Assembly: GCA_903903635.1 (NCBI GenBank)
Contig: CAIUZK010000211.1
Span: forward strand, 1 to 64,000
From: an uncultured Bacteroidota bacterium
Lineage (GTDB): Bacteria > Bacteroidota > Bacteroidia > Chitinophagales > Chitinophagaceae
Direction of reading: 5' to 3'
Length of the DNA: 64,000 nt
Made by a program: the position numbers and the translations under genes. Numbering within the stretch: the first letter of the stretch is position 1; every line of letters starts with the position of its first letter. Of this stretch, positions 1,735-52,909 are shown one piece after another. A model generated the notes under the pieces. It saw nothing but the letters and a program-made list of their open reading frames with translations. It ran no database searches and was not told where the DNA came from.

Positions 1735-2469
1735 CTAATTGGCATCGGAAACAGAACCAACCCCTGAAACATCCTGGGTTACTACAGGATGGCCTTTATA
1801 TTTTATAGAGCCTGCTCCATTTATCTCAGCAGTGAGTTTCTGCAATGCAGTTACCTCACTATTCCCCGCCCCTGAGATCGAGGCCACCGTTTCATCGGTC
1901 TTTAGTTTAAATGCCTTCAGGTCGCCCGCACCATTGATCTCATATTCGGCATGCTTTACGTAGCCGCCATTTACTACTACATCCCCTGCACCCGATACTT
2001 CTATTGAAAAATCATCCACATTTACACTATCCATTTTAATTGTGCTTGCACCTGAAATAGCCACCTTTAACTCCTTACCTGCTATTTTACCATGCACATC
2101 AGCATCAGGTGAGCCATTCAATGCTAAGGCGGTTAATGACGGCAGCGTAATTACAACAGACAAATCTTTATCCTCTATCTTCCAGGTCTCATCCAGGTCG
2201 GAATATATCTTCAGCTTATTATTCTCTACTGTTGTCTTTATGTGTTTCAGAATATTGTCGTAGCTGTTTAACTGAATTCCCGGCTGAGCGCCTTCCACAA
2301 CATTGATCACAGCTTTTAGCGACACATCAATATCTACAGCGTCGAATGCGGAAAGTACCGGACTCTTTACAGACTTGTTCCCCTCCCCTGTCAGTACATT
2401 CATTCTGCAGGAAGAGAATAAAAATAAAACGATGAAAAGATAAGCACCCGAAAAAAGATATTTTTTCAT
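1735..2469 (-). CDS. GIN-domain (DUF2807) lipoprotein
   Basis: The start is placed at the ATG of MKKYLF, eight codons inside the longest frame, because it gives a clean lipoprotein signal (LFLFSSC) with lipidated Cys about 21 residues in. The rest is a beta-helical GIN domain: LSAFDAVDIDVSLKAVINVV near the N-terminus, then repeated turns containing SGA, SGAGD, NGAGD, SGAGN and NGAGS. Such proteins (the putative auto-transporter adhesin head family) are abundant in Bacteroidota, attached to the envelope, and of unknown ligand. The gene follows the small CxxC membrane protein gene and the oxidase cluster on the same strand but is probably a separate unit. Confidence 0.85.
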   Translation of the reverse strand: MKKYLFSGAYLFIVLFLFSSCRMNVLTGEGNKSVKSPVLSAFDAVDIDVSLKAVINVVEGAQPGIQLNSYDNILKHIKTTVENNKLKIYSDLDETWKIEDKDLSVVITLPSLTALALNGSPDADVHGKIAGKELKVAISGASTIKMDSVNVDDFSIEVSGAGDVVVNGGYVKHAEYEINGAGDLKAFKLKTDETVASISGAGNSEVTALQKLTAEINGAGSIKYKGHPVVTQDVSGVGSVSDAN

Positions 2470-2525
2470 ATTGCAATAGATTAAAATATTCAATCTCGCC
2501 TTAAGGAACTTTACTATGCCCTGAA

Positions 2526-2741
2526 TTATTGACGCTGATTACTATTTTTCCACCAGATGAAACCTACCGAGCCCATAATAATAAGCGGCAAAAAAGCAAG
2601 ATAAATGATACCACCATTTAGCCCACGGGCGCTTTTATCATCAAGACCCTGAGCTGTTTTAGTACATATGCTGCAACCCTGGCCATAGGAATGGCCACAA
2701 AATAAAATCAAAAAAGCGATGAATAAAACGGCTCGTTTCAT
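2526..2741 (-). CDS. Small CxxC membrane protein at oxidase cluster end
   Basis: 71 residues. A signal-like N-terminus ends near SYGQ and is followed by GCSICTKTAQGLDDKSARGLNGG, then one transmembrane helix (IIYLAFLPLIIMGSVGFIWW) and a short polar tail. The CSIC pair faces the periplasm if the signal is cleaved, which would suit a redox or metal-handling role. I recall similar small proteins beside cytochrome oxidase genes in Bacteroidota, but no function is established. It is 89 bp downstream of the DUF420 gene, on the same strand, and is plausibly the last gene of the respiratory cluster. Confidence 0.7.
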   Translation of the reverse strand: MKRAVLFIAFLILFCGHSYGQGCSICTKTAQGLDDKSARGLNGGIIYLAFLPLIIMGSVGFIWWKNSNQRQ

Positions 2742-2830
2742 TAATTAAAATTAGCACGAAGTAAGAAGAAAGCCAAATAAATAAAGCTTACCGGACTGAA
2801 ACCATCGTTTGCAGCTAATTGCCTGATGTT

Positions 2831-3394
2831 TTAATGCACTACAGGCAGATAATACGGGCTAATGAGCACATAAACCAGCACACCGGTAATACTTACATAC
2901 AACCAGAGTGGCCAGGTAAATTTAGCCAGTTTTTTATGCTGTCTATACTCACCTGTCAATGCCCGGTAGGCCGTGAATAAAATGAATGGGAGTATTATAG
3001 TTGCCAGTATAATGTGTGTAATAAGTATGAATAAATAGAAAAAATAAAAGGCATCATGAGGTCCGCCAAACTTAGTTTCGTTGGCAAGCAGATGATGCCC
3101 GATATAAGTAACAAGAAATAGTACCGACAAAAAAATCGCGACAAACATCAGGCTTTTATGAAGCGCATAGTTTTTGTTTTTCACAGCAAACAAAGCCCAT
3201 ATCAGTAAAACGGACACTGTGCCGTTAATGATTGCATTGCAGAGTGCCAGAATATGTACATTGAAACCCAGATTAAGCCCGGTTAATACCTTTACATTCG
3301 TAAGAAAACATACGGCGGCAAAAACAACCAGCGAAACAATCCATATCAGCAGGTTTGCCTGTTTGTCGTTCTTTTTCAATACAGGTGTAAGCAT
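2831..3394 (-). CDS. DUF420 (CtaM-like) membrane protein
   Basis: 187 residues with about five transmembrane segments. It shows the DUF420 pattern of conserved membrane histidines: FNVHILALCNAIIN, YALHKSLM, YIGHHLLANETKF and LITHIILA. The Bacillus family member CtaM (YozB) is needed for assembly of haem A-containing oxidases, and DUF420 genes commonly sit beside caa3/aa3 oxidase genes. Here it lies 127 bp downstream of SCO in the same orientation, which supports a role in oxidase maturation. The family assignment is strong; the assembly role is inferred from family and context. Confidence 0.85.
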   Translation of the reverse strand: MLTPVLKKNDKQANLLIWIVSLVVFAAVCFLTNVKVLTGLNLGFNVHILALCNAIINGTVSVLLIWALFAVKNKNYALHKSLMFVAIFLSVLFLVTYIGHHLLANETKFGGPHDAFYFFYLFILITHIILATIILPFILFTAYRALTGEYRQHKKLAKFTWPLWLYVSITGVLVYVLISPYYLPVVH

Positions 3395-3521
3395 TGGACG
3401 AAAATTTTAAGTCTGTTTAAAAATAAGTTTTCCTGAACCGGTATATGCAAAAATAGCAAACCAAAATTACATAATAAAACCCCGATATGTATCCCTGGTT
3501 TCAGGCAATTTTAAGAAATAG

Positions 3522-4235
3522 CTAATGCTTTTTCTTCTCGAGGGTAAGGTACACGATATCATCAGCGCATTTACTGGTACTGGTGTCTTTCAGCCCGTCG
3601 TAATATCCCCTGATGTGCCTGTCTCTATCCAGCAGCACCATCTTTTCAGTATGGATAAAATCGTCAGCGCCACCATCGCCCGGCCCAACAGTAAGTTTCA
3701 ATTCATTTCGGGCATAATTATAGATCGCTTTTTTATCCCCGGTAAGGAACCACCAATGATCATGATTGGCGCCGAAACGATCGGCATAGGCACGCATGGC
3801 CTGGAAAGTATCCCGCTCAGGGTTAACCGTAATGGAAATAAACTGCACTACGGTGTCCAGGGAAGCTTCTTTCTTCGGGTCCTTTTTGTAGCTCAACTGA
3901 AGCCTGTGCATATTGGTGGTAAGCAGCGGGCAAATAGACGGGCAGGTAGTAAAAAAGAAATCTATTACCAGCATCTTTCCCTTCAGGTCTTTGTTCAAAG
4001 ACACTTTTTGCCCCAGTTGGTTGGTAAGTTCAATATCCGCAACCTGGTGGTAAACCGAATCATAAACCGTTTTCCCGCCAACCTGCTGGCTATCCAACCG
4101 CTCAAAACTATAGTAAGGGGGCATCCTGGATTTGCCTTTTGACAAGCGGCTGACTATCAAAAAACAAAATAGCGGTACCATTAAGGCAACCGCTATCCCT
4201 ACAAAAAACTTCCTGTTCGACTTTTTATTATTCAT
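3522..4235 (-). CDS. SCO1/SenC copper chaperone-like protein
   Basis: 237 residues. One N-terminal membrane anchor (about 12-29) is followed by a thioredoxin-fold SCO domain. The copper-binding motif is TTCPSICP with Cys98 and Cys102, and the distal ligand is His195 in DDFIHTEKMVL. SCO proteins deliver copper to the CuA site of cytochrome c oxidase or reduce its cysteines. The ATG overlaps the end of the subunit IV gene by 8 bp, indicating translational coupling. All three metal ligands are intact. Confidence 0.93.
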   Translation of the reverse strand: MNNKKSNRKFFVGIAVALMVPLFCFLIVSRLSKGKSRMPPYYSFERLDSQQVGGKTVYDSVYHQVADIELTNQLGQKVSLNKDLKGKMLVIDFFFTTCPSICPLLTTNMHRLQLSYKKDPKKEASLDTVVQFISITVNPERDTFQAMRAYADRFGANHDHWWFLTGDKKAIYNYARNELKLTVGPGDGGADDFIHTEKMVLLDRDRHIRGYYDGLKDTSTSKCADDIVYLTLEKKKH

Positions 4236-22164: not shown

Positions 22165-24855
22165 TCATCGGACGAGTGTAACATTTCCTTTATAGGCCCG
22201 GTTGGTGCCATCCGGATGGGCTACTATGAGTACATAGTTATATACACCAATATCCTGTGGTACACCCTGGTAAGTACCATCCCATCCTGTTTCAGGATCA
22301 ATAGTGCTGAATATTTCTGTACCCCACCTGTTGTAAACACTGAACTGTACGAGTTTCAGATTTTTCAGATCATGGATCCTGAACTTATCATTCAATCCAT
22401 CATTGTTTGGTGAGAAACCGGTTGGTATATGGTCGTATAAACTTGAGTCAACATAGACAGTTACATAAGCCGAATCCAGACAACCATTTACATCAAGACC
22501 AAAGACAGTATAGGTGGTAGTTACCGTTGGTGTTGCCATCGGATCACTGATATTAGGATTATCCAATGAACCATCATCAGGCCTCCAGTAATAATACACT
22601 TCATTACTTGCATTCAACTGAATACTACCTCCAAACAATATAGTGGAAGATGCGGTAAGATCGGATATTACATGGCCCAAAACAGAATTTACCCTGACTA
22701 TTTGCCGGATAGCACAACCCGGTATGGCGCCAGGCACGCCAGGGAACCAAATGGTTAATGTATCTATAAACAATCCGAAACCAGACAAAGTAGGATTGGC
22801 AATATTAATATCGCTCAGGTTAGGTGTTGGATATTCTGTCCACAAATAACTAGGCACCAAACCAGAAATAACCGGTGTCCATGTTACGTCATTGGTCATT
22901 GGCAGTGGCAAACTCAGACATAAAGTGGTATCGGTGAATGAAGATATATGCAGTTCAAGTACGATTACCGGCTTGGAAGCTGTAGATGTACAACCAATAG
23001 AGTCGGTAACAGTAAGTGTAGTCTGGAATAAACCAGAAGCATCGTAGGTATAGGTTGGCTGCCAAACTGTATCAGTTACACCATTACCATAATCCCATGC
23101 AGCGCCTACAGGTGTACCGGTTCCTAATGCCGGGTCGCCCAATGTGGTAACCGATGAATTGACCATTGTAGTTGGATAACCAAGACAGAAGGTATCTGGA
23201 GTGGGATTAAAGATAGCTGTGATAGTATGGCGCGTATCTATAGGGATAACCTTATATTCTGTGCAATGTGCATTACTAGAAGTAAGCTTGATATTGTACA
23301 CATTTTGTATGGGGTAAATATGGGTAACATGAATGTCCGTACTGGTTAAGCTGCCATCATTGAAATCCCAAACATAAGTGCTGGCATTTGTAGTTGTATT
23401 CAGCAGGTATACAGTATCAGCATAACAACCTCTCTTGATAACCGGTACAAAGTTTGGTGAAGTGCCCGGCCAAACATCTATGCTGGATGATGCCTTGCAA
23501 CCCCAAATAGTTGTTGCGATCACAGAATAGGTTCCCTGCATAGTAGAATCGAACGGAGAAACTACAGGGTTCTGAAGATTAGAAGTAAACCCTGCAGGCC
23601 CTGTCCAGGCAAATGTTTCGCCTAATGAATCAAGATTTGAAGTCAGCGCCAAAGGACTAACCAATGGATCGCAAAGCGCAATGCTGCTGCCCAGCGTAAC
23701 TACAGGTAATGGGTGAATAGTAACCAGTACACTGTCTACGTTAACTGCAACACCACCCAGGAATTTGGTAACATGATATACACCTGCATTGGCTCCTGAT
23801 GAAGGAAAAATATAAGTATACTGCTGTGTGCTGCTAAAACCGGCAGGACCAGACCATGAATAAGTTGCACCTATAGAGTCACCTACTGCACCCAGTTTAA
23901 TTGTATCGCCGATACAAGGATCATTGGCAACTGCTTTGAAACAAGTAGCCGGGCCTATGTGTATGTATTTCTTTGTAGTATCGCTGCAGCCTACTGCACA
24001 AGCCATGTACGTTGTGCCTGTTGCTGGTGAAACTGAAAGATCAGCGCCTGTGCCCAAGTATGCGCCTGTAGTGCTATCGTACCAGTAAACTGCCGAAGCC
24101 GCATAAGGTATTGGAGCATAAACAATAGGCGCTACAGTATAAGTTGCACCAGCCGGAGTAAACCGCCATGCTTCATTTGTTGTTACCCATGTTGGTGTCC
24201 AGTCCCTGAGTGGTGGTGCTGTAGAAACTGTACCGGCAGGATTTCTAACACCAACGATAGCCCGGCTACTGTTCCAACCTGTGGCACAAATGGTTCTGTG
24301 ACCGATATGAACTTCAGCCAAACCGCTACCTTCATAAATGACGATCTGTGTAGTCAACCATTCGGTAGTACAGGAAAACATACGGGTTCCGCACCATGTA
24401 ACAGCGAAATTTCTGTTTGGGGCAGTACCCTGCATAGAATACTCAATTGTACCACCGGCAGGAATATAAACATCGCACCATGGTCCGCAGATCACATTCC
24501 GGATATCAGCAGGGGCCGCGGCAAGCGCGCCGGAAATAGGCCATGTATTGTATGCGCCGGCACTTGCAGTATTAAACCCAAGACAACCATTGGAACCAAT
24601 AACGCATTGCGTATTAGGCAATCCGTAAAAGTTGTAGGTAAATCCGATAGGGATAATACCCGACCAACCATCATCCACCGTAATACCGGATGGGGTTGGT
24701 ATGATCCCACCTGTTACTTCCGCATGCAACACATGGTTGAAACAATGGATAGTGTCTGTTATAGTAATAACACCGGTGTCAATAACAATTGTTGTCTGAG
24801 CCTTGGTCCCAAATGATAAAAACAACGCTAATAGACCTAAAATAGAGTATTTCAT
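22165..24855 (-). CDS. PKD-domain cargo with T9SS type B sorting domain
   Basis: About 896 residues from the ATG of MKYSILGLL; longer in-frame starts exist, but this one gives a typical signal peptide ending GTKAQ. The body contains Ig- or PKD-like beta domains (for example YSWSGPAGFSSTQQYTYIFP, YVWDFNDGSLTSTDIHVTHIYP). The last ~90 residues are the gliding-motility-associated (type B) sorting domain: HIPTGFSPNNDGLNDKF, VYNRWGTEIF, WDGTYQGVPQDIGVYNYVL. Such proteins are exported by the type IX system and placed on or released from the surface, often as adhesins. A terminator follows. The binding target is unknown. Confidence 0.88.
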   Translation of the reverse strand: MKYSILGLLALFLSFGTKAQTTIVIDTGVITITDTIHCFNHVLHAEVTGGIIPTPSGITVDDGWSGIIPIGFTYNFYGLPNTQCVIGSNGCLGFNTASAGAYNTWPISGALAAAPADIRNVICGPWCDVYIPAGGTIEYSMQGTAPNRNFAVTWCGTRMFSCTTEWLTTQIVIYEGSGLAEVHIGHRTICATGWNSSRAIVGVRNPAGTVSTAPPLRDWTPTWVTTNEAWRFTPAGATYTVAPIVYAPIPYAASAVYWYDSTTGAYLGTGADLSVSPATGTTYMACAVGCSDTTKKYIHIGPATCFKAVANDPCIGDTIKLGAVGDSIGATYSWSGPAGFSSTQQYTYIFPSSGANAGVYHVTKFLGGVAVNVDSVLVTIHPLPVVTLGSSIALCDPLVSPLALTSNLDSLGETFAWTGPAGFTSNLQNPVVSPFDSTMQGTYSVIATTIWGCKASSSIDVWPGTSPNFVPVIKRGCYADTVYLLNTTTNASTYVWDFNDGSLTSTDIHVTHIYPIQNVYNIKLTSSNAHCTEYKVIPIDTRHTITAIFNPTPDTFCLGYPTTMVNSSVTTLGDPALGTGTPVGAAWDYGNGVTDTVWQPTYTYDASGLFQTTLTVTDSIGCTSTASKPVIVLELHISSFTDTTLCLSLPLPMTNDVTWTPVISGLVPSYLWTEYPTPNLSDINIANPTLSGFGLFIDTLTIWFPGVPGAIPGCAIRQIVRVNSVLGHVISDLTASSTILFGGSIQLNASNEVYYYWRPDDGSLDNPNISDPMATPTVTTTYTVFGLDVNGCLDSAYVTVYVDSSLYDHIPTGFSPNNDGLNDKFRIHDLKNLKLVQFSVYNRWGTEIFSTIDPETGWDGTYQGVPQDIGVYNYVLIVAHPDGTNRAYKGNVTLVR

Positions 24856-25320
24856 AAAAAGTCGGTTCATTCTAATAATATTAGACATCAAATAAAAGAA
24901 AAAGGTTTGGTACACTGATAAAATATATCCAAATAAATGTTCCGGACTACTTCGCCTTCCTTTCACTATTATTTCGGAACGAAATCAAAAGAACTCCCAC
25001 CACCGTACTCGTTATATGGTGGAACTTATTTCGTCAACGTTCCTAAGTAATTTGCTAAGATATGATATTTCTGAGAAATCTAAAAATAAACACCTCCAAT
25101 TTACTAACATTTAAAACACATTTTTTTATTTATATTTTTTATGTAATAAAACTCCGTACAGGTTGCCTTTTAGTTCAAAATCTTAGCATTAAAATAAAAT
25201 TTAAAAAACATATAAATAAATACACGACTATGATTTGCTAAAAAGTTTTCAATGAATTCTAAAAACTAGCCTAACTTAGTAAAAAATTTTAGTTCTGAAT
25301 AAGACAACTTAAACGCCCTG
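24856..25320. other. Intergenic region between two T9SS cargo genes
   Basis: 465 bp between divergent genes. It contains the inverted-repeat element at 24976-25043 and an AT-rich right half with no coding frame. Promoters for both cargo genes must lie here, but none is clear enough to place. Confidence 0.5.
24976..25043. repeat. Short inverted-repeat element, copy A
   Basis: The left arm, starting GGAACGAAATC and ending CTCCCACCA, and the right arm at 25017-25043 (TGGTGGAACTTATTTCGTC ... CGTTCC) are imperfect inverted repeats (about 19 of 27 positions) around a 14-nt interior. The right arm differs at only one position from that of the element at 37486-37642. Confidence 0.6.
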
Positions 25321-40690: not shown

Positions 40691-40867
40691 AATTTATTTT
40701 GATTTAGGTAAATAACTAAAAATCAACACAAAATAATGCCTGATATATACCAATGCAATACCCCAAATGCGGTATATTTCATCTGGATAGTTATTAATTA
40801 AAGGGTGATTTCCAAAAATCAATCCATTATATCCATCCTACATTCTTTTAGAGTTCACTATATTTGT

Positions 40868-43378
40868 ATGATAGTGACCGGTATCGAACAACTTAGAAAA
40901 TGGGCCAATGGCATTTGGTTGGCATCTGTCAACAAGGATACTAAAATCAGTATTTTAGCTATTGATAGCCGCAATATTGATTCGGAAAACACGTTGTTCA
41001 TTGCTATCAAAAGCGCCCACCGTGATGGTCATAACTTCCTGTTTGATGCATGGCAGAAAGGGGTGCGCAATTTCCTGGTCGACCATGAGCCTCTGGATAG
41101 CCGACTGGCTGACTCAAATATTATTCTTGTCAAGGACACAATTGCCGCATTGCAGAAAATTGCCGCCGGATACCGCAGCCTTTTCCATTGCCCGGTTATC
41201 GGCATTACGGGCAGCAATGGCAAAACAATAATAAAGGAATGGTTGTATCAGTTGCTCAGCCAGCATTACAATATTGTACGAAGTCCGAAAAGCTACAACT
41301 CACAGATTGGTGTCCCATTGTCGGTATGGCTTATGAACCCCGACAACGAACTGGCTTTATTTGAGGCCGGTATTTCTCAGCCGGGCGAAATGGAAAAACT
41401 GGAAAGAATTATCCAGCCCACCATAGGTATCATTACCAATATAGGCGAAGCACATAGCGAAAGTTTTTTGAACAGCCGCCAGAAGATCAATGAAAAACTG
41501 ATCCTCTTCCGCAATGTAAAACAACTGATTTATTGTCATGATCATGCTGAATTGAACCAGGCTATTGTTCAGTATATGCACCACGTAAAAGGAGGCCGGA
41601 CAGAAGAACCTTTGCAACTCTTTACCTGGTCTCAAAAATCAGATGCCGATCTCCGCATCACATCTGTAAGCAAAGAACATGGCAAGACAGAAATCAACGC
41701 TATCTGCAAGTCGGAAAACTTACAAATAACGATTCCCTTTACTGATGAGGCTTCAATAGAAAATGCTATACACTGCTGGTGTGTCATGCTGCTGCTTGGT
41801 GAGGATAAAAAGTACACTTCGGCGCAAATGGCTCATTTGCAGCCGGTATCCATGCGCCTGGAACTGCGCCACGGCATCAACGACAGCACGCTGATCAATG
41901 ATGCTTATAATTCAGACCTTACATCAGTTCAGTTGGCCTTAAACCACCTGGAGCAGCAAAAACAACACACCCACCATACCGTGATCCTGTCTGATATTAT
42001 GCAGCCGGGCAAAAGGGATATGGATCTGTATGAAGAGATTGCCTCCTACATCAGCCGAAGAAACATACAGCGGTTTATAGGTATAGGACCTGCATTGTAT
42101 AAAAATAAATCGGCCTTCAGGAAGCATAAAAAACTACGCAGTATTTTCTTTAAGTCGACTGAGGAGTTTCTTAAAAATTTCCACCTGCTTACGTTCAATA
42201 AGGAAGCCATACTGCTGAAGGGCGCAAGGATATTTGCCTTCGAAAAAATAGCATTGCTGCTGGAGCAAAAAGTACACCAGACTGTAATGACCATCGATCT
42301 TTCGGCGCTTACGCACAATCTGAATGTCTTTAGGGCTGAGCTGGCGCCGGGAGTAAAAACAATGGCCATGGTTAAGGCATTCTCTTATGGCAGCGGTAGT
42401 TTTGAAATTGCCAACAGACTGTACCAGGCAGGCGTTGATTATCTTACTGTGGCCTACACAGACGAGGGCATTGCCCTACGCAGGGGAGGTATCAAAATGC
42501 CGGTAATGGTGATGAGTCCTGATGCTACTTCCTTCGATCGCATGATAGCCTGGAAACTCGAACCTGAACTTTTTAATTTCCGTTCATTAGCTGCATTTGC
42601 CAGTATAGCCCAGACATTTGGGGCGGAAAACTACCCGGTACATATAAAGCTGGATACGGGTATGCATCGTCTGGGCTTTGGTCCCGAAGATATAGACGAA
42701 CTTATTGCACGCATCAACGAATGCCCTAACATCCGGGTTGCTACTATTTTCAGTCACCTGGCAGCAGGCGACGACCCAAGGGAGGATGCATTTACCATGC
42801 AGCAGGCAAACAGATTCAGGGAGATGAGCGATCAACTGATAGCCGGTCTGCCTGACCAACCCATGCTGCATCTGTGCAATTCTGCCGGTACGGTAAGGCA
42901 TCACAATCTGCATTTCGATATGGTGCGCCTGGGCATTGGTTTGTATGGCGCCGACAGCAGCCGTGAATTGCAAAACAAACTGAAACAGATCAGCACGCTC
43001 ACCACCAGCATTGCCCAGATAAGGAAGGTAGCTACAGGCGAGAGTATAGGATACGGTCATCATGCTATTGCCCCGAAAGACCTAACCGTTGCCACGATTT
43101 GCATAGGCTATGCCGATGGCTACCCCAGATCGCTGGGCAATGGCAAAGCCCATGTACTTATTCATGGACAGCCTGCCAAAACTATTGGTTCAATTTGTAT
43201 GGATATGTGCATGGTAGATATTTCGGAAATACCTGCCGCAAAAGAAGGCGATGAAGCTATAATTTTCGGACCTGAATTACCTGCCACAAAACTGGCTGAA
43301 TGGGCCGGAACTATCTCTTACGAAATCATGACCAGCATATCGCAACGGGTAAAAAGAATTTATGTAAATGAGGAGTAA
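40868..43378 (+). CDS. murF-alr: Fused MurF ligase and alanine racemase
   Basis: 836 residues from the ATG of MIVTGIEQLRKWANG; an in-frame start at 40805 would add 21 residues outside the domain. The N-terminal half is a Mur ligase: GITGSNGKT at about residues 112-120, the family GISQPGEMEKLERII, and LINDAYNSDLTS. The C-terminal half, from about residue 474, is alanine racemase with PLP-binding Lys503 in MVKAFSYGSG and GYGHHAIAPKD ... GYADGYPRSLGNG. The fusion makes D-Ala and adds D-Ala-D-Ala to UDP-MurNAc-tripeptide. This fusion is known in Bacteroidota. Confidence 0.93.
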   Translation: MIVTGIEQLRKWANGIWLASVNKDTKISILAIDSRNIDSENTLFIAIKSAHRDGHNFLFDAWQKGVRNFLVDHEPLDSRLADSNIILVKDTIAALQKIAAGYRSLFHCPVIGITGSNGKTIIKEWLYQLLSQHYNIVRSPKSYNSQIGVPLSVWLMNPDNELALFEAGISQPGEMEKLERIIQPTIGIITNIGEAHSESFLNSRQKINEKLILFRNVKQLIYCHDHAELNQAIVQYMHHVKGGRTEEPLQLFTWSQKSDADLRITSVSKEHGKTEINAICKSENLQITIPFTDEASIENAIHCWCVMLLLGEDKKYTSAQMAHLQPVSMRLELRHGINDSTLINDAYNSDLTSVQLALNHLEQQKQHTHHTVILSDIMQPGKRDMDLYEEIASYISRRNIQRFIGIGPALYKNKSAFRKHKKLRSIFFKSTEEFLKNFHLLTFNKEAILLKGARIFAFEKIALLLEQKVHQTVMTIDLSALTHNLNVFRAELAPGVKTMAMVKAFSYGSGSFEIANRLYQAGVDYLTVAYTDEGIALRRGGIKMPVMVMSPDATSFDRMIAWKLEPELFNFRSLAAFASIAQTFGAENYPVHIKLDTGMHRLGFGPEDIDELIARINECPNIRVATIFSHLAAGDDPREDAFTMQQANRFREMSDQLIAGLPDQPMLHLCNSAGTVRHHNLHFDMVRLGIGLYGADSSRELQNKLKQISTLTTSIAQIRKVATGESIGYGHHAIAPKDLTVATICIGYADGYPRSLGNGKAHVLIHGQPAKTIGSICMDMCMVDISEIPAAKEGDEAIIFGPELPATKLAEWAGTISYEIMTSISQRVKRIYVNEE

Positions 43379-46040: not shown

Positions 46041-47873
46041 CTACTCCTTCAAAAACTTCCTCACCTCAGTGCCGTTTATCCTGATGAGGTAAATGCCGGA
46101 GGGCAGGTTGGCTACATCAATTTGTACCTGCTGGGAGCAATACTTTTGGCTACTAAATGTTTGCCCTATGTAGTTTGTGATATCAGCAGAGGTTATTGGA
46201 TTGTTTGAAGTAATTGTAAGGGTGTTAAAGGCAGGGTTTGGAAACACTTCTATAGATCCATCGCGGGGGGATATGGTGTTGAATGTAGAATTGATACAAT
46301 CACTACTGGAGCTTATTATAAAGGTATAATGTGTGGTATCTGTGCCGCATGAATTAGTAAGGATATATTCAAGATTTACAGTCCCACTTGAAATGCCTGT
46401 TAACAATCCTATGGAAGGGTTAGTATAATGCGGATCAGCAATTACAGTAGCAATTGAATTATCTAAACTCAGCCAGATGCCTCCGGTTACTGAGTTGTAA
46501 ATATCTGTACTGGTACCAGGACAAATACTATCAACGTATGCCAGTAAAGTACCGCCTACCGGAATTGAATTAACTGTTACTGTTTTGGTGGCTGAAAAGC
46601 CAGATTTTGTGTATGATATCGTAACTATACCTGCGCTTAAACCAGTTACACTGCCAATAGTATCTACGGATGCAATTACTGCATTACTGCTGCTCCAAAA
46701 GCCACCGGTTTTGACTTCGTTTAGCAAGATAGTGTTTCCTGCACACAATTGGTTTGCCCCTGTAATGGGGGATAAAATGGTATCAACTCTCATTACCGTA
46801 GCTTTACCACCATAGCTGCCATCGGAGAATGAAACATAAGGATTTCCACTCCTGTCCATTGCTAAATCAGGACACCAGGCAGGACTAGTTGAGACGGTGG
46901 GTCCACCAACTGAAACCCAACTGCTACCAATGAATTTCTTGACTATCACCGGACTGAAACCTCCATAATTAATATAGGACACATAGGGAATACCACCGGC
47001 ATCAATTGCAATAGATGTAAAAGCTGCATATTCTGTTGAGAATCCCGGACTTCCGACAAACACCCAGTTACTACCATTATATTTCATAACAGTAGTCTTG
47101 CCAGCAATTGCAAGGGCACTATCCACCCAATCCTCAAAAACTACATAGGGCGTGCCGTGCATGTCAATTGCTATAGAGGTATACTGAGCCTTCCTGTACG
47201 GGAATCCTGTGCCGGCAGATACCCAGGTAGTTCCATTGAATTTCATAACTCTTGCTGCTCCGGCGGCATTAAAATCGCTGTAAACAACATAGGGTGTACC
47301 AAGACTATCTATAGCTATAGAAGGACTTAGGGCCATGCCTCCTGAGAACCATGCACTACCAACCAATACCCAATCAGTACCATTGTATTTCATTGAGGTA
47401 GCACCACCACCGGCACCATCCATATACACAACATATGTTGTGCCATCGGGTGCAATCGCTATTGATGGTGTCACTGCTTCATATGCCGAGAAACCCTCCA
47501 TACCAACCGTTACCCAACTTGTACCATCAAATTTCTTAACTGTAGCTTTAAGGCTATTGTAATAATCTGAATAAATTACAAAAGGGATATTATTACCATC
47601 GATAGCAATTTTAGGTGAACTTACTGTACTATCTGAGAACTGTCGGCTGCCAACAAAGGACCAAATGCCTCCAGTGCATTTCATAACAGTAGCTTTACCG
47701 CTATCGACAAAAACCAAATAGGGTATGCCTCCAGTGTCTATTGCTATGGATGTTGTTTGTATATAAGCAGGCGAGAATCCAGGGCTACCTACAGGTACCC
47801 AGATTTGTGCCGAGGCGGGTAAAGAATATAATAGACTGATAAAAATGATATAATACAGAAGCGCATTTTTCAT
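46041..47873 (-). CDS. Propeller-like cargo with T9SS type A sorting domain
   Basis: 610 residues with a signal peptide (MKNALLYYIIFISLLYSLPASAQ). Residues about 24-365 contain seven ~50-residue repeats, each built on SIAIDxxGTPYVVYxD, KATVMKFNG and WVxVGxxGFS, likely a beta-propeller. An Ig-like (BIG2) pair follows (GGFWSSSNAVIASVDTIGSVTG). The C-terminal ~80 residues (IEVFPNPAFNTLTI ... VQIDVANLPSGIYLIRINGTEVRKFLKE) form a type A sorting domain. It is exported by the type IX system. The 84 bp at its 3' end are about 95% identical to the neighbouring gene. Confidence 0.88.
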   Translation of the reverse strand: MKNALLYYIIFISLLYSLPASAQIWVPVGSPGFSPAYIQTTSIAIDTGGIPYLVFVDSGKATVMKCTGGIWSFVGSRQFSDSTVSSPKIAIDGNNIPFVIYSDYYNSLKATVKKFDGTSWVTVGMEGFSAYEAVTPSIAIAPDGTTYVVYMDGAGGGATSMKYNGTDWVLVGSAWFSGGMALSPSIAIDSLGTPYVVYSDFNAAGAARVMKFNGTTWVSAGTGFPYRKAQYTSIAIDMHGTPYVVFEDWVDSALAIAGKTTVMKYNGSNWVFVGSPGFSTEYAAFTSIAIDAGGIPYVSYINYGGFSPVIVKKFIGSSWVSVGGPTVSTSPAWCPDLAMDRSGNPYVSFSDGSYGGKATVMRVDTILSPITGANQLCAGNTILLNEVKTGGFWSSSNAVIASVDTIGSVTGLSAGIVTISYTKSGFSATKTVTVNSIPVGGTLLAYVDSICPGTSTDIYNSVTGGIWLSLDNSIATVIADPHYTNPSIGLLTGISSGTVNLEYILTNSCGTDTTHYTFIISSSSDCINSTFNTISPRDGSIEVFPNPAFNTLTITSNNPITSADITNYIGQTFSSQKYCSQQVQIDVANLPSGIYLIRINGTEVRKFLKE

Positions 47874-47914
47874 GACGGGATATTATATACTAAAGATACT
47901 CATTTAATTAATTC
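47871..47914 (-). repeat. 44-bp leader shared by two cargo genes, copy 1
   Basis: The sequence from the start codon of the gene at 46041 upstream for 44 bp (CATGACGGGATATTATATAC onwards, plus strand) is identical to 49443-49486, the leader of the adjacent cargo gene. On the minus strand it contains TATCTTTAG, a partial match to TAnnTTTG, so a shared promoter is plausible. Confidence 0.8.
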
Positions 47915-47918
47915 ATTT

Positions 47919-49445
47919 CTACTCCTTCACAAACTTCCTTACCTCCGTGCCATTTATCCTGATGAGGTAAATGCCGGAGGGCAGGTTGGCTACATCAATT
48001 TGAACTGATTTGTTATAATATTTATTGCTAACAACCTCTTGCCCAATCGGGTTGAAAATAATTACTGATGTTATCGGGTTATTGGATGATATAGTAATCG
48101 ATTTATTCGTAGGATTTGGGAAGATATAATAATTAGAGGAAGGTTTTTGGGTTTCAATAACGGACACTGAAGAGTCAATAACTGCAACCGTATCAGGTGG
48201 GGTGCCACATCTTGTGCCATGCATATTGTAATAAATTAAATGAGATTGTTCAAAATTTGGAGAATCTCCATCCCAATGATAATAGTAGGTCAATCCAATC
48301 CCAAGTTTGAAATACGACCAATCATATTCACTACCTAACCCCCCTGCGTAAAAATTGGCTGGCTCTACAACATAAACAGGGCTATGAGAACAATAACTCG
48401 TATCATTTGGAATATAAAAAAGATAATTTCCTAATAAAATTTGCTCTTCAGGCATATATGATGTGTCCATCAGCGGGTAGATGCTGCTTGAAAAATAATA
48501 TACTCCTCGAGTAGAGACAAAAGTGCAGGGATAATGTGTATACCCAGTGAAGGAACAGGTACCAGCTGAGCCAACCAAATTCAGGATGGCCAAGGAACCC
48601 GAAAGTGATTTAGAGCTAACTGTATCTAAAATTTCTTCAGAAACATTATAAGACATCATAGGTGATATTCCATAGAAGTGCGAACTTCTAATCACATCAC
48701 CACTATCCCAATTGTATAATTGTTGCGTATTGGGGTTTATAAAATCAACCAGCTTAAAAATAGTGATATTCGGGTTAGGCATAACTGGAGTTGATAATGC
48801 GAAATTAATATTTGAACTCGTACATGTTGACCTGTCGAGAAAGAAATCTAAACCAATCCGGTACGCCGAATCTGGTTTATGATATGGAAATGTATAAAGA
48901 TCAAAAACCTGAACAAAACCATGATTTTTGCTAAGAATAATTTTGAAGCTGTCCAATGGGTCAGAAGGCACTATACCTGTACCATTATTGGCTGTAATCA
49001 TAATTGTCTTAATGGAGTCAGGAACTGATAGTACCGTCATTGTATCCTTTGAGATTACCGTGGCTTTATAATACAGGCTACTGGAATCTCTATAAAAATC
49101 CCAACTGTCTCCTATGTTGGCCTGAGTCTTAATAATTACTGAATCATTCCAATAACTATCAAAAACAAAAGTGCCATCATTTAGTTGGCGTACCTTCTTC
49201 CCTAACCAACTTCCACCATAAGCTAAAAAAGGATATCCACCTGTCCCATAGGTTCCTCTTGGTGTTTGAAATGGATAATAAACAATAGTATCCCCTAATG
49301 TATCAATTGCATCTATCCTGATGCCTCGCAGGTAGCCGTTGCCATTAATAAAATAATGCTTAACACCTGCCTGCAGGCATTGGTAATTTTGTGCATTGCA
49401 GAAATTGGCACTGCAAATCAGAATAATGAGCAACAACCTTTTCAT
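47919..49445 (-). CDS. Secreted protein with T9SS type A sorting domain
   Basis: 508 residues with a signal peptide (MKRLLLIILICSANFCNAQ). The body shows no recognisable catalytic domain; it is rich in Tyr, Ser and Asp and has features of unclassified extracellular beta-proteins (for example YNMHGTRCGTPPDTVAV before the tail). The last ~75 residues (YYIFPNPTNKSITI ... GQEVVSNKYY ... VQIDVANLPSGIYLIRINGTEVRKFVKE) are a type A sorting domain nearly identical at DNA level to that of the gene at 46041. It precedes that gene on the same strand, 45 bp apart. Confidence 0.8.
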   Translation of the reverse strand: MKRLLLIILICSANFCNAQNYQCLQAGVKHYFINGNGYLRGIRIDAIDTLGDTIVYYPFQTPRGTYGTGGYPFLAYGGSWLGKKVRQLNDGTFVFDSYWNDSVIIKTQANIGDSWDFYRDSSSLYYKATVISKDTMTVLSVPDSIKTIMITANNGTGIVPSDPLDSFKIILSKNHGFVQVFDLYTFPYHKPDSAYRIGLDFFLDRSTCTSSNINFALSTPVMPNPNITIFKLVDFINPNTQQLYNWDSGDVIRSSHFYGISPMMSYNVSEEILDTVSSKSLSGSLAILNLVGSAGTCSFTGYTHYPCTFVSTRGVYYFSSSIYPLMDTSYMPEEQILLGNYLFYIPNDTSYCSHSPVYVVEPANFYAGGLGSEYDWSYFKLGIGLTYYYHWDGDSPNFEQSHLIYYNMHGTRCGTPPDTVAVIDSSVSVIETQKPSSNYYIFPNPTNKSITISSNNPITSVIIFNPIGQEVVSNKYYNKSVQIDVANLPSGIYLIRINGTEVRKFVKE

Positions 49446-49486: not shown

Positions 49487-49734
49487 CAACTATCCTAATC
49501 AGAAATTATATCCGGAGTACTAAATCCCCCCACTAATAAACACATTCAAATATATTATCTTATAAATTTATCAGCAGACATCTTCAGAAATACAAAAAAT
49601 ATTAATCCTAAATTAATAATTATCGCCCCACTTTCCGCCCGATTCGTTAATTTTAATTGTGTTTGCATCAATTACCCAACCATTTTAAGAATGGTACAGT
49701 CTATATTGATGTTTAGTATTAATAACAAATATAC

Positions 49735-50310
49735 TTGTCTATAGCTTTGGCATATACTACTACGGGCCATGCCAGTGAGTTGGAGCAACTCATTCAAGGA
49801 TGTATCCACAACGAACGTGGAGCACAGGAGAAGCTATATCATCTCTTTTATCCGAGAATGATGGCTTTGGTCCGCAGGTATATTGATCATGAAATGCAGG
49901 CAGAAGAGGTGTTGAATAATGGTTATCTCAGGGCTTTCCAGAAAATTAAACAATATAATTTTCAAGGATCCTTCGAAGGATGGCTGAGAAAGATCATTTT
50001 TCATGCCGTGGCAGACTATGTGAAACAGAATGCGCGTTATAGCAACAATATAGTTCTTATAGAAAAAGATGAATTTGTGCATAAAGATCATGCCGATAAG
50101 CTGTATTACGATCAGCTTATACAACTGGTTCAGGCTTTACCTGATGCCACCCGGTCGGTATTCAATATGTATGTAATGGACGGATTTACGCATAAAGAAA
50201 TAGGAAATTTATTAGGTATAAGTGAGGGTACATCCAAATGGCATTTATCGGAAGGCAGAAGGGTATTGAAAGAAAGGATTGAAAAACTGGAGTTGCACCT
50301 GAAAATATGA
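49735..50310 (+). CDS. ECF-family RNA polymerase sigma factor
   Basis: 191 residues from TTG at 49735; no in-frame ATG precedes the sigma domains, and TTG at 49747 or 49780 are alternatives. Sigma region 2 spans about residues 22-90 (EKLYHLFYPRMMALVRRYI, EEVLNNGYLRAFQKI, FEGWLRKIIFHAVADYVKQ); region 4 about 125-185 (LPDATRSVFNMYVMDGFTHKEIGNLLGISEGTSKWHLSEGRRVL). A TAGCTTTG box at 49742-49749 suggests transcription may begin within the 5' codons, favouring the 49780 start. The next gene starts 41 bp after the stop and is a likely membrane-bound partner. Confidence 0.88.
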   Translation: MSIALAYTTTGHASELEQLIQGCIHNERGAQEKLYHLFYPRMMALVRRYIDHEMQAEEVLNNGYLRAFQKIKQYNFQGSFEGWLRKIIFHAVADYVKQNARYSNNIVLIEKDEFVHKDHADKLYYDQLIQLVQALPDATRSVFNMYVMDGFTHKEIGNLLGISEGTSKWHLSEGRRVLKERIEKLELHLKI

Positions 50311-50350
50311 TTTGGCAATAACTATTTTAAAAATAAAAAAACTTATCCAA

Positions 50351-52909
50351 ATGGATAATAATTTAATCAACATCGATGACCTGGTAAGGCAGCGATTAAC
50401 AGGACGGGAGGAGCGGGAGCCTGCCGGTGCATGGTTGCGCATGCGCGAACTTCTGGATAAAGAAGAAGAACGTAAGCCCGTCGGCTTTATCTGGCGCCGC
50501 ATGTTTGGCGGCCTGGCTATTCTGGTGCTGATCTCCGCGATCAGCCTGGGTAGCTATGAGCTTTCATCTTCTTACAAAAGGTCGGCAGGAAACAATACTC
50601 CCGTTATTGCTTCCTCTGACGTGAACACCAATACACATAACAATCAGAATCCCGCAACCAATAATAACAGTATTGCTCCGGTAGCCGCAAACGATAATAC
50701 AACTGACAAGCATAACAAATCAACCAAAACATCTGCCGCTTCAGGCATTTCAGATAACCATTCTAAAACAACTGCTAAAGAAAACACTACTACTCCTGTC
50801 GTTACATCTGCTGTAACAAGTACTTCTGTTACTCAGCCTGCACATCATAACACGCACAATACTGCCGACAATGTAAAATCAACAATTGCCGCTACTAATT
50901 CGGAAACTGCAGGCAAGACCAACATTTCTGAAAACACAACCGATAATAATACTGTTGCCGATAATCATGATGCTGCGCCACACAACACACCGGCTGTTGC
51001 AAAAACTACAGGTAAAACACCTAAGACTGCAATAACAACCAGGACTTCTGAAACAACTTCAGGTAGTACTTATGCCGGTTCTGCCACACCTGCTGCTAAA
51101 GCCGGTGAAACCCCTGCTGTTGCTACTACTAAAACCGGTAGCAATACCAATGGTTTGACTGATACCAAAACCGAAGCTAAAAAGTCTTCCCTGTCCGGAA
51201 CCAATAAGCATACCCAATCGGATATCAGTGAGCCTGCGGTTGCAACAAGCAATACAACTGCCAACTCAACTGATAAGAGTGCTCCTGCGGTTGCAACAAC
51301 CAATACTAATGCCAACTCAACTGATAAGAGTACTACTGAAACTTCAGCCAATACAAAACATAGTATTGCCGGTAATTCATCTAAGCCGGATGGCACAGCT
51401 AAGAAGCCCGGAACAAAAACTCAGTTAGCCGGGAATAACAAAAAACATACAGGGATAGCTGCAACTAATGCTACTACTGCTAAAACCGGTAAAGGCGTGA
51501 ATATTAAAACCATTCCTTTGGCTGGCGCTGCACCCACACCTGTGGCTACCACAAACAGTCCGGCTAAAAAGCATGGCATAGCTTCATCTATCAAAGCCTC
51601 AGGTTCGGCTAAACACATTCCATCAGACAAGAAGACCGATAAAACTGCAATCGCAGGCGCAGATTCTAAATTGACTGATGACGGCGATATAACAACAACT
51701 ATTGCCGATAAGCCAGCTATTAAAAAAGCCGGCAAGCGCGGAGGTACCATTACGGCAACTACGGCTCCTGTTACGGCTAAAGGAACAACAAGCATTGCGC
51801 ATCATGCAAAACCTGTTACTCCTGCTTTATCCAAAAAATCAATTATCACCACCGGTTCCGGAATTGCTGAAAACGACAATACAGAAGCCGTAAGTATAAG
51901 AAGGGGCAATAAAACTATAGATAAGGTAACTATTACAGAAAGGTATATCAAGATATCTCCAAACACTTATCTCCTGCATCTGGATACCATATCTATGGAG
52001 AATATTAATGAAGAATATTCTATTACTAATGTTGCCAAATCTGAAAATTCAGGCCCTTCAAAGGAAGCTGAAGAAAATGGCAATCTTACTGTCAATAACG
52101 GAAATGCGCTGATGGCACCCGGCGCTCAGCCACCATCTGAATCAAAAACTGATGAAGCAATTCCCGCAAAGGAAACTACCAAAATAAAGAAAGCGAATGG
52201 CCATCCGTTTGAGCCTTTGCAGAATGCTTTCAACGATATCAAGTATAAGATAAACGGCACCCAGTTTGCAATGGGTCTCACAGGTGGTATCAACGGTACT
52301 TTCTTTGGCCCAAGCAGTTTCAACGGTTTCCAGTTTGGAGCTACCGCCAACTTCGTTTTCAGCGAATCATTAAATGCAATGGCCGAGCTTAAGTATTTCC
52401 ACCGTGCAAATAACGACTACACCCTGAACGATAACTACAGCACCTATACTTATAGCGGCAATGGCTATACACAACAGCAAATGAGTCTGCCTTATACATT
52501 TTCTACCTTGCACAGTTTTGAAATGCCTGTATCCATACGCTATACAAAAGGCAAATTCAATTTCTTTGCCGGCGCAAACCTGGTTTATTCATTTGCAATC
52601 AACGAAAGCCAGGGATTGCCTGTTGCAGGCGCCACAAAATCCTTTACAGGATTGGTACCGGGTAATGATACTACAGCAAAAATTAAAACCGGTGATTTTG
52701 ATGCCCGGTTTGGTTTAGGCTATCTGTTCGGTGTTTCCGTTCAGTTGTCGCCAAGTATGTCGCTCGATTTCAGGGATGTTCAAACCTTTTGGGATAATGC
52801 ACATTCGGCAGGAGCAAAAGAAATATCAAGCCAACTTTACAGGGCCCCATCTTTCCAGATTTCATTGGGATACAGATTTGCCGGCAAGAAAGAAAAAGAC
52901 AAAGAATAA
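50351..52909 (+). CDS. Putative envelope-spanning regulator with beta-barrel
   Basis: 852 residues from the ATG of MDNNLINIDDLV. Residues 1-50 are charged and helical (DDLVRQRLTGREEREPAGAW), resembling the cytosolic head of Bacteroidota anti-sigma-like proteins. One transmembrane helix spans about 51-69. Residues about 75-620 are low-complexity Thr/Asn/Ala/Lys/Ser, including a 17-residue repeat pair (PAVATxNTxANSTDKSx). From about residue 638 a beta-barrel follows (FAMGLTGGINGTFFG ... FNFFAGANLVYSF ... FQISLGYRF), ~210 residues, matching porin/OMP_b-brl-like domains. The order suggests one chain passing from cytosol to outer membrane. It follows the sigma gene directly. Confidence 0.78.
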   Translation: MDNNLINIDDLVRQRLTGREEREPAGAWLRMRELLDKEEERKPVGFIWRRMFGGLAILVLISAISLGSYELSSSYKRSAGNNTPVIASSDVNTNTHNNQNPATNNNSIAPVAANDNTTDKHNKSTKTSAASGISDNHSKTTAKENTTTPVVTSAVTSTSVTQPAHHNTHNTADNVKSTIAATNSETAGKTNISENTTDNNTVADNHDAAPHNTPAVAKTTGKTPKTAITTRTSETTSGSTYAGSATPAAKAGETPAVATTKTGSNTNGLTDTKTEAKKSSLSGTNKHTQSDISEPAVATSNTTANSTDKSAPAVATTNTNANSTDKSTTETSANTKHSIAGNSSKPDGTAKKPGTKTQLAGNNKKHTGIAATNATTAKTGKGVNIKTIPLAGAAPTPVATTNSPAKKHGIASSIKASGSAKHIPSDKKTDKTAIAGADSKLTDDGDITTTIADKPAIKKAGKRGGTITATTAPVTAKGTTSIAHHAKPVTPALSKKSIITTGSGIAENDNTEAVSIRRGNKTIDKVTITERYIKISPNTYLLHLDTISMENINEEYSITNVAKSENSGPSKEAEENGNLTVNNGNALMAPGAQPPSESKTDEAIPAKETTKIKKANGHPFEPLQNAFNDIKYKINGTQFAMGLTGGINGTFFGPSSFNGFQFGATANFVFSESLNAMAELKYFHRANNDYTLNDNYSTYTYSGNGYTQQQMSLPYTFSTLHSFEMPVSIRYTKGKFNFFAGANLVYSFAINESQGLPVAGATKSFTGLVPGNDTTAKIKTGDFDARFGLGYLFGVSVQLSPSMSLDFRDVQTFWDNAHSAGAKEISSQLYRAPSFQISLGYRFAGKKEKDKE
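51233..51334 (+). repeat. 51-bp in-frame tandem repeat in spacer
   Basis: CCTGCGGTTGCAACA recurs at 51233 and 51284, with the following bases largely the same, encoding PAVATSNTTANSTDKSA and PAVATTNTNANSTDKST. The unit encodes 17 residues, so gains or losses keep the reading frame of the spacer. Confidence 0.75.

Follow-up and report, generated by a model that had tools for sequence, protein, structure and literature searches.

The Dma family was reportedly founded and named by Pardue et al. in a 2024 PNAS paper. The Dma1-Das1 and Dma2-Das2 pairs of B. thetaiotaomicron have the same organisation as the gene pair described here: Dma proteins combine an N-terminal anti-sigma region, a transmembrane helix, a disordered tether and a barrel, and genes for ECF21 sigma factors adjoin theirs (PMC13088901). 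In the passages of that paper drawn on here, deletion of dma1 or dma2 turns the sigma factor on, the dma2 deletion phenotype requires its sigma factor, and which substrates Dma2 senses is, according to the authors, unknown. The window, by which we mean the whole 64,000-nucleotide stretch analysed from an uncultured Chitinophagaceae bacterium, carries a comparable pair:

49735..50310, + strand: ECF sigma factor of 191 aa with a TTG start (Pfam matches for regions 2 and 4; the start codon is TTG in 63/64 loci).
50351..52909, + strand: Dma-type two-membrane protein of 852 aa, a putative anti-sigma factor (open reading frame, layout and AF2 model; 64 full-length relatives).

Both Sigma70_r2 and Sigma70_r4_2 exceeded their Pfam cut-offs in the sigma factor, and TIGR02985 scored 71.4 bits, below its cut-off of 126.4. 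A single-sequence model of this protein was poor (mean pLDDT 54.5) and was left out of the conclusions. The second reading frame is open over 50312-52909, and the ATG at 50351 yields the 852-aa product after a 40-bp gap, in agreement with the spacing and length given by the original prediction. The Dma-type protein itself gave no Pfam match at E 0.01 and no NCBIfam match. The neighbours scanned code for T9SS cargo, a Vut_1 transporter and an OmpA-family protein; a search for a FecR-type anti-sigma factor with a TonB-dependent receptor returned no FecR match and no such receptor among these neighbours. A neighbouring pair of genes that encode T9SS type-A surface proteins (46041-49445, - strand, Por_Secre_tail) points away from the sigma operon and has its upstream region in common with it. 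Elsewhere in the window, an 857-aa product fuses Mur ligase domains with an alanine racemase (40805-43378, + strand).

The layout of the 852-residue protein, predicted from its composition, hydrophobicity and AF2 model, is as follows:

50351..50500, + strand: cytosolic head, residues 1-50, putatively sigma-binding (the best conserved of all segments in each of the four identity bands).
50501..50557, + strand: transmembrane segment, residues 51-69, within a model helix at 47-74 (hydrophobicity, AF2 model).
50558..52261, + strand: low-complexity tether with a pre-barrel helix at residues 621-636 (composition, AF2 model).
51899..52024, + strand: predicted beta-hairpin within the tether, residues 517-558, with a DT(I/V) motif at 545-546 (AF2 model, recurrent motif).
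52262..52876, + strand: C-terminal outer-membrane beta-barrel, residues 638-842 (AF2 model, Foldseek, Pfam on relatives).

Residues 51-69 form the best 19-residue hydrophobic window of the protein, and the tether behind them spans about 543 aa, 85% of which are N, S, T, A, P, G, K, Q, D, E or H. The AF2 model, built on a 65-sequence alignment, has a mean pLDDT of 57.5, lowered by the disorder of most of the chain; its ten C-terminal strands at 638-842 mostly exceed a pLDDT of 90, and the short head helices at 9-16 and 27-36 are of low confidence (pLDDT about 50-63). The best Foldseek matches of the model in the PDB were the OmpA, OmpW, NspA and OmpX barrels (E 2e-6 to 6e-5), and Pfam recognised OMP_b-brl_2 in 34 and OMP_b-brl in 20 of the 65 family members. 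By sequence, searching the PDB with the family profile gave marginal matches only (opacity protein OpaA60, E 0.001, and low-complexity matches to TolA). The original prediction of a ~50-residue charged head, a single transmembrane helix at 51-69, a spacer of over 500 residues and a C-terminal barrel of ~210 residues fits the model, with the C-terminal part modelled as a barrel and not as a soluble fold; the hairpin is our addition to the spacer.

Searching 60 genomes of the same family with the single sequence gave matches in 15 (own genome included), and a scan of the genome contigs yielded 69 loci, uncultured Bacteroidetes, Flavipsychrobacter, Taibaiella and other Chitinophagaceae among them. 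The two-gene arrangement expected from the original prediction recurs in them: a sigma ORF lies directly upstream in 67/69 loci, and the contigs of the other two (L059 and L065) end first, so the pairing of the sigma factor with the Dma-type protein is not due to chance. Head and barrel are encoded by a single ORF in 64/69 loci; left out of the alignment were L093 (split ORF), L103, L105 and L112 (contig ends) and L114 (no barrel match). In L093, positions 2339-4217 hold the homologue as two overlapping ORFs, the head in one and the barrel in the other, through a frameshift or an assembly error. Among 198 genomes of the phylum, the subfamily profile matched 10, own genome included, only two of them at E <1e-50, so the subfamily looks, at the level of sequence, local to the Chitinophagaceae.

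Within the own genome, a Dma-like layout lies downstream at four of the 18 sigma places, namely the window and contigs C221 (515 aa), C124 (523 aa) and C188 (383 aa), the last three (L321, L324 and L318, respectively) judged by the position of the transmembrane segment, length and C-terminal sequence. The search for a Dma-like head in distant matches used a narrow pattern and covered 3 of 29 loci, two of which are the same C221 gene.

We compared segment identities across four bands of sequence pairs, covering the sequences with a DT motif. The head, about 45 residues, was best conserved (mean identity 0.57 to 0.94), followed by the barrel (0.39 to 0.89), and the tether before the hairpin stayed at 0.28-0.29 except in the closest pairs. 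Hairpin identity exceeded that of the rest of the tether in close pairs and fell to tether level in distant ones; conservation by identity was for this reason rejected as support, and the hairpin claim rests on the model together with the recurrent motif. In the model the stretch forms two long strands with a core pLDDT of about 82-85, and 60/65 sequences have a DT followed by I, L, V, F or M in their tether, whereas shuffling the tethers leaves it in 14.5 sequences on average and in 28 at most. The motif is absent from the 515- and 523-aa Dma-like paralogues of the own genome. The predicted tether hairpin with its recurrent DT(I/V) motif looks new.

Since the architectural features that can be checked by computation are present (a transmembrane helix, a long disordered tether, a C-terminal barrel, an adjacent ECF sigma gene and a conserved head of about 45 residues whose sigma binding is putative), we file the window protein, on its modelled architecture, as a new Dma-type member. 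The original prediction had held that one chain could link a sigma-binding head to an outer-membrane barrel, and knew of no established mechanism; model, orthologues and published relatives bear out the one-chain layout beside the sigma gene, while the second part falls with the description of Dma1-Das1 and Dma2-Das2.

The region upstream of the sigma gene holds a conserved promoter:

49674..49703, + strand: sigma-type promoter ACCCAACC-N17-GTCTA, with the -35 box at 49674-49681 and the -10 box from 49699 (same motif at the same spacing in 64/64 loci; best site of the genome).

Boxes of the ACCCAAC/GTCT kind are typical of ECF promoters. In all 64 loci (63 named loci with a complete sigma gene plus the window), [A/G]NCCAAC followed by 18 bases and GTC lies upstream of the sigma gene with identical spacing, whereas a looser pattern was found in shuffled regions of 1.9 loci on average and of at most 7 of the 64. 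With a model built on 47 of the 64 promoters, the window promoter was the best site of the whole genome (26.8 bits). The sigma start codon is also conserved, TTG (49735-49737 in the window) being used in 63 of these loci, and 62 have no in-frame ATG or GTG in codons 2-20. The position of this conserved promoter suggests that the sigma factor would regulate its own operon.

We then asked where else the motif occurs, pooling genomes according to whether they carry a strong orthologue (profile E <1e-50; 13 genomes) or not (47 others, 16 of them with weak profile matches). ACCCAAC-N18-GTCTW was found at 44 sites in the 13 orthologue genomes versus 6 for the reversed control, and at 16 sites in the 47 others versus 53 for the control (Fisher P = 8e-13; P = 4e-11 for the 37 sites left without the seven sigma promoters). 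An ORF of 150 codons or more encloses 3/37 of the sites in the 13 genomes and 10/16 in the 47 (P = 8e-5). The exact motif was absent from two genomes with an orthologue (G031 and G032), and in two of the 47 others (G017 and G040) it precedes PorP-type genes.

A downstream ORF (ATG within 450 nt, 60 aa or more) was present at 33 of the 37 sites. According to NCBIfam, run on all 33 products (one giant protein by its first 1508 residues only), nine carry the type-B T9SS sorting domain TIGR04131 (one at 33.3 bits, under the cut-off of 35), six the type-A domain TIGR04183, and four are PorP/SprF proteins (TIGR03519). Three more are BamB-like PQQ propellers with a lipoprotein-like N-terminus, their matches being far below the BamB cut-offs. 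The remaining 11 fall outside all four groups; five are cut by contig ends and one is an ECF sigma gene. Given a background in the 13 genomes of 335 type-B, 66 PorP and at least 1588 type-A matches (2325 type-A candidates), the probability of such counts by chance is 3.5e-12 for type B, 2.2e-7 for PorP and 0.001-0.008 for type A, assuming about 42,900 genes; these binomials assume one gene per 1.1 kb and treat as independent genera that are related, and with a density of one gene per 1.3 kb the probabilities become 1.5e-11, 4e-7 and up to 0.017, respectively. Several targets recur: BamB-like ones in three genera (30-43% identity), PorP ones in three genera (52-63%) with a fourth more distant, and one giant type-B protein in two genera (50% over 970 aa). 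Viewed from the PorP side, only 8 of 24 readable loci (30 of the 66 matches taken) have a site of more than 7 bits, four of which are already among the 37. One further promoter match, of 21.3 bits, lies before a small helix-turn-helix-like gene (site at 1501 of L286; G033 C532:2107). The predicted target set is coherent, since type-B proteins are held at the surface by PorP-like barrels (PMC9143113); the sigma factor would control T9SS surface display. The promoter ACCCAAC-N18-GTCT together with its predicted regulon also looks new.

The own genome does not carry this result by itself. With a shorter pattern it gave 8 sites versus 12 for the control, so a regulon drawn from this genome alone was rejected and the enrichment comes from the pooled orthologue genomes. 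Three further exact sites precede one BamB-like lipoprotein gene and two type-A T9SS genes. The second-best site of the genome (22.6 bits; G000 C272:22231-22264, - strand, read in L158 and L213) is not followed by any substantial ORF. A terminator-like hairpin with a U-run follows it at about 130-160 nt and could end a sigma-driven small RNA or be the terminator of the preceding gene; the fold of the stretch after this promoter as a whole was not unusual (z -1.37). The window adds a candidate regulon member:

24880..24911, - strand: weaker promoter-like site of 15.5 bits (a score above 15 was met 0.07 times per simulated window).
22165..24966, - strand: T9SS type-B surface protein gene behind this site (TIGR04131 50 bits, CHU_C; likely ATG start downstream of the site).

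The computed evidence comprises the pairing of the genes, the layout of the domains, sequence conservation, the promoter, the enrichment of its motif and the content of the regulon. The reading we favour from it, with a probability of about 0.68, is that of an autoregulated ECF sigma factor which, with its Dma-type anti-sigma factor, drives a T9SS surface-display regulon. Promoter evidence bears on the transcription step (own operon and display genes), and we infer the earlier ones: that the head binds the sigma factor, how the chain is placed in the cell, what the signal is and how the sigma factor is released. The head would hold the sigma factor at the inner membrane, and the transmembrane helix, disordered tether and C-terminal barrel would connect it to the outer membrane. 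A change in the state of the barrel (failed insertion, displacement or occupancy), tied to surface display, would be the signal, much as the original prediction had proposed control by barrel state or assembly, upon which the periplasmic part would be cut or repositioned by a change of docking and the sigma factor freed. Freed sigma would transcribe from ACCCAAC-N18-GTCT promoters, amplifying its own operon and raising expression of type-B T9SS proteins, PorP/SprF anchors, some type-A cargo and the BamB-like lipoprotein. Direct mechanical tension through the tether was considered and set aside as unlikely: the periplasm is much narrower than tethers of roughly 250-670 residues, the range seen in relatives, appear to be long, which makes a cut or a docking change more plausible than pulling.

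The motif could instead be read by another sigma factor, the window sigma gene being merely one of its targets. The genome has 18 places with Sigma70_r2, the motif is present in G017 and G040, which lack a strong orthologue, and weaker look-alike sites precede the sigma genes on C188 (13.5 bits) and C109 (11.5 bits). Yet none of the 17 other sigma genes exceeds 13.5 bits compared to 35.8 for the window sigma gene, the motif stands before window-type sigma genes in all 64 loci, and its excess over the control is confined to orthologue genomes, so we hold this reading to be unlikely. Nothing in the present data tells the sign of the effect, and bacterial surface signalling includes sigma regulators with a positive action; the Dma-type protein might hence activate the sigma factor as a co-activator or pro-sigma partner and not only inhibit it. 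We regard this as quite improbable, given that in B. thetaiotaomicron it is the loss of dma1 or dma2 that turns the sigma factor on.

Two other readings concern the protein as a physical object. A very long tether, an OmpA-like barrel and a head whose sigma binding is putative would suit a mainly structural link between the membranes that merely has its operon in common with a sigma factor, but the head is the best conserved segment and the sigma pairing holds in 67/69 loci, which leaves this reading very unlikely. It is likewise quite unlikely, though less so, that a constitutive cut keeps the barrel from staying joined to the inner membrane, head and barrel acting apart. A long disordered tether would be an easy protease target; against this stands the single ORF in 64/69 loci (the rest being three contig ends, one split and one without a barrel match), a weak argument since gene layout does not report on the protein itself.

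The Dma-type protein might moreover be a resident reporter of T9SS display capacity, a possible but doubtful extension. Its barrel would use the same assembly or shuttle routes as PorP/SprF, and loss of its proper state would free the sigma factor, which would then raise the output of type-B cargo, PorP/SprF barrels and a BamB-like lipoprotein. In this subfamily the tether hairpin would be the site of docking or cleavage, and the circuit might be closed by a small RNA under the control of the sigma factor. The sharp promoter and coherent predicted targets that accompany this Dma-type pair make what the barrel senses and controls testable with ordinary reporters.

In E. coli, RpoE-RseA is the familiar case of a membrane anti-sigma factor reporting the state of outer-membrane proteins; RseA has no barrel of its own, and other proteins sense the unfolded porins. 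The window pair would resemble it in having a membrane anti-sigma factor tied to the outer membrane and, unlike RseA, would carry its own barrel. Among the papers listed in our literature search none links Dma proteins with T9SS; the one among them in which the term Dma occurs together with type IX secretion and gliding, PMC12045153, has that term in its reference list only. SigP of Porphyromonas gingivalis, which works with PorX/PorY, is likewise an ECF sigma factor over T9SS genes, porP included, and differs in its two-component partner, its T9SS component genes as targets and its proposed motif (PMC4800418); the partner of the window sigma factor is a membrane protein, and its predicted targets are cargo and cargo anchors. 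The SM6 promoters of Flavobacterium psychrophilum also have an ECF-type -10 and target T9SS genes and one sigma/anti-sigma pair, but the T9SS targets named are the machinery parts GldN and PorU, and the sections of PMC9723704 drawn on mention no two-membrane anti-sigma factor. SigP and SM6 are earlier cases of T9SS genes under ECF control that differ in partner, motif or targets. The closest likeness is to the Dma pairs of B. thetaiotaomicron, which, in the passages drawn on, have in common with the window pair the order of anti-sigma region (putative in the window protein), transmembrane helix, long disordered tether and C-terminal barrel, the adjacent ECF sigma gene and the phylum Bacteroidota. 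The work in PMC13088901 concerns one gut species, whose Dma outputs described there are vesiculation, NigD1 and PULs, whereas the window pair sits in a lineage with type IX secretion and its predicted output is T9SS surface display.
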